Of a stretch of 58,555 nt of DNA, positions 47,290 through 49,839 are shown one piece after another. The notes below the pieces were generated by a model. It saw nothing but the letters and a program-made list of their open reading frames with translations, made no database searches and was not told the DNA's origin. The stretch covers positions 1-58,555 of the forward strand of contig CAJQIC010000033.1 of NCBI GenBank assembly GCA_905478335.1. The letters run 5' to 3'. Position 1 is the first letter of the stretch. Each line of letters begins with the position of its first letter. Source of the stretch: an uncultured Bacteroidia bacterium (GTDB taxonomy: Bacteria; Bacteroidota; Bacteroidia; NS11-12g; UBA9320). The translations under genes and the position numbers were made by a program.

Positions 47290-48675
47290 ATGAATTTTAA
47301 AGTAGACTTACCTAAAGACAAATCCTCAATAATCAAGGTTATTGGTGTTGGTGGCGGTGGCGGAAACGCTGTAAATTATATGTATGAACAGGGCATCTCT
47401 GGTGTCGACTTTTTCATCTTTAATACCGACAACCAGGCTTTAGAAATGAGTCTTGTTCCAAATAAAATTCAAATAGGTAACGAACTTACCGAAGGTCGTG
47501 GTGCTGGATCTAACCCAGAAGTAGGTAAACATGCTGCAGAAGAAAGTCTTGAAGACATTATAGAATCGTTGGGTGTGAACACCCAAATGGTGTTTGTAAC
47601 CGCAGGAATGGGTGGAGGAACCGGTACTGGAGCCGCCCCTGTAATTGCCAAAGCGGCTAAAGACATGGGTATTTTAACTGTGGGTATTGTCACCACCCCA
47701 TTTAGCTTCGAAGGCGGCAAAAGAGTCACTGCAGCTGAAACTGGATTGGCAGAAATGCGCGAAGTTGTTGACTCCTTATTGGTGATTTCAAACGACAGAA
47801 TTAAAGACATGTACGGTAATCTAAAAATTACCGAAGCGTTTTCATACGCTGATAATATTTTAACTACGGCCGCTAAAGGTATTGCTGAGATTATAACCAT
47901 AGCGGGTAGTATAAACGTAGACTTTGAAGACGTTAAAACGGCCATGACGAACAGTGGTGTGGCCATATTGGGTAATGGCATTGCTGAAGGAGACGACAGA
48001 GCAACACGTGCTGCTGAATTGGCGTTAAACTCACCATTGCTAAACGACAATAAAATAACTGGTGCGAGCGACTTGCTTATAAACATCTCTTACGGCGATG
48101 AAGAAGCGAGGATGGATGAATATGCCGCAATCAATGAGTTTTTCCAAGAACAAGCCGGGATGGATGCCAATTTAAAATGTGGTTTGTGTTACGACGAGTC
48201 TTTGGGAGCTAAAGTATCGGTAACCATTATTGCTACTGGATTCCACAAAGCAGAAAACCGGTATATCGGCGTTGAACAGATAGTTGAAGAAGAAGAACAC
48301 ATTATTGAAGCTGCTTCCTATACGCCAGAGGAAACAGAAGCAACTCAAGAGACAACAAAACAGAAACAAACATCCATTTTCGACATTATTAATAGCGAGG
48401 AAGAGGATGAAGATGAAATAAGGATTGCAAATACGAAGGTTGAAGAGATGAAAGAACGCATCGTTAAGCTTAAGGAATTAAGCAAAACGGCGAACTCTCA
48501 AGAAGGAATGGAAGAATTAGAAAACGTGCCTGCCTATAAACGCAGAGGTGTTAAACTAAACCAGACCCTGCACTCTTCAGAAACGGATATATCGCGTACA
48601 TCGTTGGTAGATGAACCTGATAGCAAGCCAGAAATTAAAACGAATAATAGCTTTCTACATGATAATGTAGATTGA
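47290..48675 (+). CDS. ftsZ: Cell division protein FtsZ
   Basis: 461-residue tubulin homologue forming the Z ring. GTP motifs: IKVIGVGGGGGNAVNYM near the N-terminus, GMGGGTGTGAAPVIAKAA (T4 loop), ISNDRIKDM, and the T7 region with the catalytic aspartate (NVDFEDVKTAM). After residue about 320 comes a charged linker (EEEDEDEIRIANTK) and a conserved peptide PAYKRRGVKL near 415-425, followed by about 40 more residues, so the FtsA-binding peptide is internal rather than terminal, as seen in Bacteroidota. Last gene of the cluster. Confidence 0.97.
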   Translation: MNFKVDLPKDKSSIIKVIGVGGGGGNAVNYMYEQGISGVDFFIFNTDNQALEMSLVPNKIQIGNELTEGRGAGSNPEVGKHAAEESLEDIIESLGVNTQMVFVTAGMGGGTGTGAAPVIAKAAKDMGILTVGIVTTPFSFEGGKRVTAAETGLAEMREVVDSLLVISNDRIKDMYGNLKITEAFSYADNILTTAAKGIAEIITIAGSINVDFEDVKTAMTNSGVAILGNGIAEGDDRATRAAELALNSPLLNDNKITGASDLLINISYGDEEARMDEYAAINEFFQEQAGMDANLKCGLCYDESLGAKVSVTIIATGFHKAENRYIGVEQIVEEEEHIIEAASYTPEETEATQETTKQKQTSIFDIINSEEEDEDEIRIANTKVEEMKERIVKLKELSKTANSQEGMEELENVPAYKRRGVKLNQTLHSSETDISRTSLVDEPDSKPEIKTNNSFLHDNVD

Positions 48676-48685
48676 TACGAGTTTG

Positions 48686-48756
48686 ACTACACATGCGACT
48701 TGAACAGGGGGACGCTAGCATTTGAGAAAATGTTTTTGTACCCCCTTTCTTTAATC
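48686..48756 (+). terminator. Structured element 1 after ftsZ (hairpin and T-rich tail)
   Basis: Conserved 5' block ACTACACATGCGACTTGAA, outer stem AGGGGG (48706-48711) with CCCCCT (48741-48746), and inner hairpin CATTT-GAGA-AAATG (48719-48732; GNRA loop). TTTCTTTA follows. It could end the dcw transcript. Element 2 at 48867-48935 is a diverged copy with compensatory stem changes. Confidence 0.6.
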
Positions 48757-48866
48757 AAGAATTGAGGGATTGAAGAATTGAGGGATTGAAGAGGAACTGT
48801 GATGATTGAAGCTAAAAATAAGAAATTGAGACGGTGGCGTATTTACAAAACCGTTTAAATACTTTA

Positions 48867-48937
48867 ACTACACATGCGACTTGAATAGGAGGACAAGATC
48901 ATTTGAGAAAATGTTTTTGGGCCTCCTTTCTTTATTT
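48867..48937 (+). terminator. Structured element 2 (diverged copy, covarying stem)
   Basis: Same ACTACACATGCGACTTGAA, same inner CATTT-GAGA-AAATG (48900-48913), but outer stem AGGAGG (48887-48892) with CCTCCT (48922-48927). Both arms changed together relative to element 1, which argues for selected pairing. A T-rich tail TTTCTTTA follows. Confidence 0.6.
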
Positions 48938-49266
48938 AAGGCCGGCATGAATTGATAGTTGATAGTTGATAGTTGATAGTTGATAGTTGAAAATTATGAC
49001 ATTCAATCCTTCAGTCATTCAATCAGTCAGACATTCAAACATTCAAACATTCCGACATTCAGACATTCAATCCTTCTGTCATTCAATCCTTCAGACATTC
49101 AGACATTCCGACATTCAATCCTCAAGCAAGACCAATAGGAATTAGGTTGAGCAATAATTGAAATTTGAAAGTTGAAAGTTGAGAGTTAGGACCTTAAATC
49201 CCTCAATCCCGCAACCCTTCAATCCCTCAGACATTCAAACATTCCGACATTCAGACATTCAGACAT

Positions 49267-49839
49267 TCAGACATTATCCTTCGTATTCACCAAATTCATG
49301 GCCATACCGATTCCGCGAAAAACCATTTCTTCAATGCCCTTTTTCATCTTAGCGTACAACGGTGGCAAATCGGCTTGTTCTGATTCGGTCCACTCACCGA
49401 GCACGTAATCGATCTGTTGGCCGTTTGAGAATTCGGCGCCGATACCAACGCGTAACCTTGGATACTTGGAACCGTTTAATACTTCCTGAATACTCTTTAA
49501 TCCGTTATGTCCACCATCGCTACCTTTACCACGCATGCGTAGCGTTCCAAATGGCAAATTCAAATCGTCGGTAACTATCAATATTTGATGTGGTTGGACT
49601 GATAACTTCTTCATCCAAAACTGTAGTGCATTACCACTTAAGTTCATGAAGGTGTCTGGTTTTAAAAAGTGCAAATTTCTGCCTCTATAGCGATGCTTGG
49701 CGTATGAACCAAACCGCTCTTGCGTAAACTCAAAATCATATTGATCTGCCAAATAGTCTAGAAAGCCAAAGCCTACATTATGCCTTGTGTTGGCGTATTT
49801 ATCGCCAATGTTACCCAACCCTACTATTAAATATTTCAT
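49267..49839 (-). CDS. pth: Peptidyl-tRNA hydrolase
   Basis: 190 residues; recycles stalled peptidyl-tRNAs. N-terminal YLIVGLGNIGDKYANTRHNVG with the catalytic His, FLKPDTFMNLSG, ILIVTDDLNLPFGTLRMRGKG and DGGHNGLKSIQEVL. The stop lies in the octamer repeat region (the last codons are read from ACATTATCC). Its ATG overlaps the permease stop by four bases. Operon rbfA-permease-pth. Confidence 0.96.
   Translation of the reverse strand: MKYLIVGLGNIGDKYANTRHNVGFGFLDYLADQYDFEFTQERFGSYAKHRYRGRNLHFLKPDTFMNLSGNALQFWMKKLSVQPHQILIVTDDLNLPFGTLRMRGKGSDGGHNGLKSIQEVLNGSKYPRLRVGIGAEFSNGQQIDYVLGEWTESEQADLPPLYAKMKKGIEEMVFRGIGMAMNLVNTKDNV

Follow-up and report, generated by a model that had tools for sequence, protein, structure and literature searches.

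Why should a bacterium carry, right behind its ftsZ gene, two copies of a short sequence that looks like a structured RNA? The question is raised by a contig of an uncultured member of the Bacteroidia (CAJQIC010000033.1), of which we have analysed the whole stretch of 58,555 nucleotides (the window) together with the genomes of its relatives. How replication initiation is coordinated with division in bacteria is a long-standing question, and few RNA links between the two processes are known, just as few small RNAs of Bacteroidota have known targets. The complementarity between this element and the tail of the dnaA messenger, described below, is a hint that the two processes may be connected through RNA in an uncultured Bacteroidota group.

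The element and its two copies

The ftsZ gene occupies positions 47290-48675 of the plus strand (NCBIfam TIGR00065, 359 bits for a cut-off of 295), and copy 1 of the element (48686-48752, plus strand) starts 10 nt past its stop codon. Copy 2 follows on the same strand at 48867-48933. Repeat comparison within the window gives two direct repeats (48682-48759 and 48863-48940) that are 85% identical and 181 nt apart, each with a 5' block, a terminator-like hairpin and a T-rich tail. The first 19 nt, ACTACACATGCGACTTGAA, are identical in both (48686-48704 and 48867-48885), and the inner hairpin CATTTGAGAAAATG and a TTTCTTT tail are also common to the two. The complete hairpin covers 48706-48746 in copy 1 (AGGGGG...CCCCCT) and 48887-48927 in copy 2 (AGGAGG...CCTCCT), the outer stems being formed by 48706-48711 with 48741-48746 and by 48887-48892 with 48922-48927, respectively. 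These stems differ in a single pair and in both arms at once, G48709-C48743 in copy 1 being replaced by A48890-T48924 in copy 2. The original prediction, made from the letters of this stretch, had described just this, i.e., two copies sharing block, hairpin and T-rich tail, with a change from G-C to A-T(U) in both arms of the stem, and was accurate on both points. No third copy of the 5' block exists in this genome, where it occurs at these two places only. The spacers around the copies are filled with tandem low-complexity repeats (TTGATAG; GACATTCA; AAGAATTGAGGGATTG) at 48757-48792, 48952-48990, 48998-49120 and 49218-49275, and are poorly conserved between species.

Folded as 74-nt RNAs, the plus strands of copies 1 and 2 reached -20.9 and -18.7 kcal/mol (z-scores of -3.8 and -3.4); the minus-strand folds of the two copies were not significant (z-scores of -1.4 and -1.7). 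With the relatives included, the fold z-scores ranged from -3.3 to -5.1, and hairpin and T-rich tail were present in every copy. Within the 5' block, the ten bases CATGCGACTT (hereafter the seed; 48692-48701 in copy 1 and 48873-48882 in copy 2) are predicted to be unpaired, in copy 1 with a probability of 0.97-1.0 per base.

Conservation among relatives

A lack of further copies in other genomes had been named in advance as a finding that would speak against a selected RNA fold. We found nine of them in six other genomes, always behind ftsZ: three in tandem in G001, two in G004 and one each in G003, G005, G007 and G009, to be added to the two of the genome described here (G000). G001, G003 and G004 belong to the same genus as the latter, and in every multi-copy genome of this genus ca. 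180 nt separate the tandem copies. G005, G007 and G009 represent three further genera, with a diverged copy that is also located behind ftsZ, which brings the distribution to four genera of one family. A search of 108 genomes of the order detected no element beyond these seven genomes, the matches in a second family being unrelated sequence, and 395 genomes sampled from the class added only spurious matches, under filters so strict that copies with the divergence seen in G005 and G007 could have escaped. Weak covariance-model matches in G051, G077, G083, G107, G371 and G398, all from other families and orders, were discarded, their surroundings being unrelated and containing neither ftsZ nor the complete box. 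The one-mismatch matches outside the element-bearing genomes had no hairpin and looked like chance. Behind ftsZ in the other genera of the family there is unrelated sequence. The element-bearing genera cluster in the FtsZ tree, which is compatible with a single origin in the four of them.

The degree of conservation is far above that of the surroundings. Copy 1 is identical at 68 of 68 positions in three species (G000, G001 and G004), for which the ends of ftsZ are 77-83% identical and the spacer after copy 1 55-71%. The hairpin sequence of copy 1 and that of copy 2 each recur from species to species, indicating a duplication that predates the species and the maintenance of both copies. Between genera the situation is different, with hairpins that have almost nothing in common in sequence and still retain their pairing. 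Among nine distinct sequences, changes on both sides of the helix were detected at 6 pairs (3.2 expected; 3 of 500 shuffles reached 6), in an alignment that was fitted to the structure; sliding the helix along this alignment left 0-1 such pairs, and an independent MAFFT alignment gave five. Pairing has thus been retained in four genera despite the change in hairpin sequence, in support of the idea that the RNA fold is under selection and not just the product of a duplication. Unlike the hairpin, the unpaired block CATGCGRCTTGA is near-invariant across genera, and its first ten bases were predicted to be unpaired in all nine of the sequences folded. Its conservation had been considered to exceed the needs of a terminator, with no function being proposed. 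We would add that the conserved working part is the 5' block and not the hairpin.

A predicted small RNA and its candidate partner in dnaA

Small base-pairing RNAs are typically built in this way, from a seed and a terminator hairpin. The element is short, ends in a predicted terminator and has an unpaired seed with the remainder free to vary, and a conserved complementary site is found in a candidate target in the genus (see below), features expected of a trans-acting small RNA. We consider it quite probable that it specifies a base-pairing RNA of some kind. Each copy would encode a small RNA of ca. 63 nt, in which an exposed and near-invariant 5' seed (CAUGCGACUUGA) is followed directly by an intrinsic-terminator hairpin.

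Preceding the box of copies 2 and 3 there are 50 nt conserved without a single gap, and 37 of 55 columns just before the box were invariant in four sequences vs. 4 of 55 further upstream. For copy 2 of the window this block (48823-48872, plus strand) contains a CGGT...ACCG inverted repeat and then ATACTTTAACTAC, and is likely a promoter or regulatory site; its conservation, together with the inverted repeat, fits an independent promoter for copies 2 and 3. The -7 region, ATACTTTG(A), is one base away from the promoter consensus of the phylum, TAnnTTTG (PMC9723704), and is not a clean match. The consensus itself is modestly enriched upstream of the genes in the window (8 occurrences vs. 2.2 expected). 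If the usual spacing holds, the RNA would start around CACATGCG and have a length of ca. 63 nt. No clear promoter was found for copy 1, which would overlap the end of the ftsZ transcript and may either be processed from the ftsZ mRNA or form its end.

A small RNA of this kind would act in trans by base-pairing, and in this genus we regard a hairpin of the dnaA 3' UTR as its most likely partner. A complement of the seed, 11-14 nt long, is located right after the stop codon of dnaA (identified by NCBIfam TIGR00362) in five out of five genomes of the genus (G000:C54 (L154), G001 L155, G002 L153, G003 L152 and G004 L156). Directly after the stop codon, four of these genomes agree completely over a stretch of 30 nt (TAATCAAGTCGCATTTGATTTAATGTAAAA; also TAATCAAGTCGCATTTGATTTAATG). 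For dnaA itself the identity is 81-91%, and it is only 33-67% in the 30 nt past this stretch. The stretch folds as a hairpin ahead of dnaA's terminator, whose stem varies between species, and the complementarity to the seed lies in the loop and 5' arm of this hairpin (UCAAGUCGCAU). The fifth genome, G003, has a different sequence at the site (TAATCAAGTCGCATGTGATTA) with the outer stem retained, and there the pairing with the seed is perfect over 14 nt, the other genomes having 11 nt plus a mismatch. The predicted duplex energies are -24.8 kcal/mol for G003 and -18.6 for the other four, and none of 300 shuffled seeds did as well as the real one. In G002 the dnaA site is present and the element was not found, but neither was ftsZ itself in this assembly, rated 100% complete, so that the absence of the element there may be only apparent.

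Pairing would open the dnaA hairpin and in this way alter the stability of the dnaA mRNA. Alternatively, the tail of dnaA could sequester the small RNA. By either route, the outputs of ftsZ and dnaA would become linked at the RNA level. We draw the dnaA part of the mechanism from complementarity and its conservation within the genus. No complement was found at the dnaA ends of G005, G007 and G009, which represent the other three genera with the element, and the chance of one non-coding 11-nt match was estimated at about 0.07 per genome, before requiring conservation and for a site that was found after looking. Because three of four genera lack the complement and a match of 11 nt is not rare, we lean towards the mechanism as a whole, in which a trans-acting small RNA made behind ftsZ would pair with the 3' UTR of dnaA, with no great confidence. 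The boldest version we put forward tentatively and with more doubt than belief: tandem small RNAs released behind ftsZ would bind the hairpin in the tail of dnaA, so that base-pairing lets the 3' ends of the two transcripts communicate and ties together the amounts of the initiator and the division protein. If true, a small RNA beside ftsZ with a seed matching the tail of dnaA would connect replication and division directly and in a way that is easy to test, and would provide Bacteroidota with a compact family of small RNAs.

Alternative readings and known systems

The absence of the complement in three of the four element-bearing genera would be explained if the small RNA acted in trans on other mRNAs, and the dnaA complement were due to chance or to a site kept for other reasons. 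To us this seems unlikely. We listed every AAGYCGCATG in the seven element-bearing genomes and every CAAGYCGCAT in eight genomes, and nearly all of these seed-complement sites were within genes or antisense to them. Two genes of G000 and one of G007 have AAGYCGCATG across their start codons, which speaks for other targets. These are weak leads. The sites in G000 have an A-C mismatch to the seed, and one of them is accounted for by the frame in which the preceding gene is read. Furthermore, among the CAAGYCGCAT sites the dnaA 3' UTR is the only non-coding one conserved between species, its 30-nt block being intact in four genomes in which the flanks are not.

Some of the remaining sites are worth recording. 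AAGYCGCATG lies across the start codon of a conserved membrane-protein gene in G000 (L135), G001 (L141) and G004 (L143), with a perfect match to the seed in G004 only, and an overlapping upstream gene also constrains the sequence. In G000 and G002 the seed also occurs upstream of dnaA, but inside coding sequence, and this copy was rejected. Hairpins with a GUCGCA loop precede an ABC ATPase gene in G000 (L197, ca. position 338; TACAA-GTCGCA-TTGTA) and a secreted-protein gene in G009 (L216, ca. position 1201; TCAA-GTCGCA-TTGA), neither of them conserved in related genomes. G009 also contains an intergenic orphan RNA candidate (L030:1441-1560), in which a perfect 17-nt complement of the box of this same genome sits just before a strong terminator, a match with an estimated probability of about 5e-4 by chance in a 4-Mb genome. 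It was not found in other genomes of the family, and is possibly a sponge or partner RNA.

The second alternative dispenses with a free small RNA. The element would act in cis at the 3' end of the ftsZ mRNA, as a terminator with a stability or processing element, or by direct pairing between the tails of ftsZ and dnaA. The 10 nt that separate copy 1 from the stop codon would indeed make it the end of the ftsZ transcript, three genera have only this copy behind ftsZ, and the dnaA element is likewise placed between a stop codon and a terminator. However, copies 2 and 3 come after a terminator, each with a conserved block of 50 nt of its own upstream, and the unrelated sequence behind ftsZ in the other genera of the family indicates that the element is not needed for ftsZ termination. 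We find this reading quite improbable.

A DNA-binding protein that recognizes TCAAGTCGCAT at ftsZ, dnaA and a few other places would account for the presence of this sequence in both orientations, for its position within an inverted repeat at dnaA and for the isolated palindromic sites that precede two other genes. But the sequence has the same strand and the same place ahead of a terminator hairpin in the four genera with the ftsZ copy and in the five genomes with the dnaA site, and the hairpin shows covariation. A DNA site would need none of this, which makes the reading very unlikely. Even harder to believe is a leader peptide or attenuator starting at ATGCGACTTGAA... (MRLE...). The block does read M-R-L-E/D in all the genomes, with a synonymous CGA/CGG change, but GAA/GAT is not synonymous, the frame of copy 2 stops after four codons and those of the other copies differ in length. 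Nothing is conserved downstream, and no same-strand gene that a conserved frame could regulate comes after the element, pth being convergent on the other strand. Chance, or a plain mobile or low-complexity repeat next to an ordinary terminator, might be suggested by the tandem repeats of the spacer, but is refuted by the related genomes, with only two copies in this genome, the same place in seven genomes and a conservation far exceeding that of the neighbouring gene.

Returning to the small RNA that we favour, Rfam 15 gave no family above the gathering threshold in the window or at the six related loci, and only weak eukaryotic matches at a relaxed threshold. The predicted RNA family is new, in that no Rfam family matches it. 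Open-licence papers yielded neither a small RNA located behind ftsZ in Bacteroidota nor an RNA link between ftsZ and dnaA. Tandem sibling small RNAs with a common pairing region and a divergent remainder, as seen here, are known in OmrA/OmrB and Qrr, which are from phyla other than Bacteroidota and depend on Hfq.

EcpR1 of Sinorhizobium meliloti is a small RNA encoded beside a cell-cycle operon that regulates dnaA by base-pairing (PMC4414408). It resembles the element in its cell-cycle gene neighbourhood, strongly conserved unpaired motif, terminator and pairing with the dnaA mRNA (here predicted). However, it is an alphaproteobacterial RNA of about 101 nt with two stem-loops, and is reported to pair with target mRNAs near the ribosome-binding site and start codon (PMC4414408), whereas the element has a single hairpin and an unpaired 5' end, and its complement is in the 3' UTR. 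The element does not belong with EcpR1, a two-stem-loop RNA with the loop motif UCCGCCGCAUCU, from which its own motif differs. Within Bacteroidota, GibS of Bacteroides thetaiotaomicron also combines a conserved single-stranded 5' region with an intrinsic terminator, but is about 145 nt long and has two further hairpins; the paper, on the intergenic small RNAs of this species, mentions neither ftsZ nor dnaA (PMC7366714). Rfp18 of Flavobacterium psychrophilum is, like the element, a conserved and strongly structured RNA with predicted mRNA pairing, but is tied to metalloprotease mRNAs via its third stem-loop, in a paper without mention of ftsZ (PMC9723704).

Elsewhere among the relatives, five loci of genus g3 (L052, L054, L055, L060 and L061) have another conserved block behind ftsZ, TTTTTTTCATAGGYATTASAATTT, together with the hairpin GGGCGTTGYGAAACGTCC, that is, the same layout with a different sequence. 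The dnaA 3' regions of L160 and L161 (genera g9 and g5) share TCTTTTTTAATCTTAATTTTCATAGGGGCAA ahead of the terminator, and the motif TTTTCATAGG of these regions is also present in the g3 block behind ftsZ.
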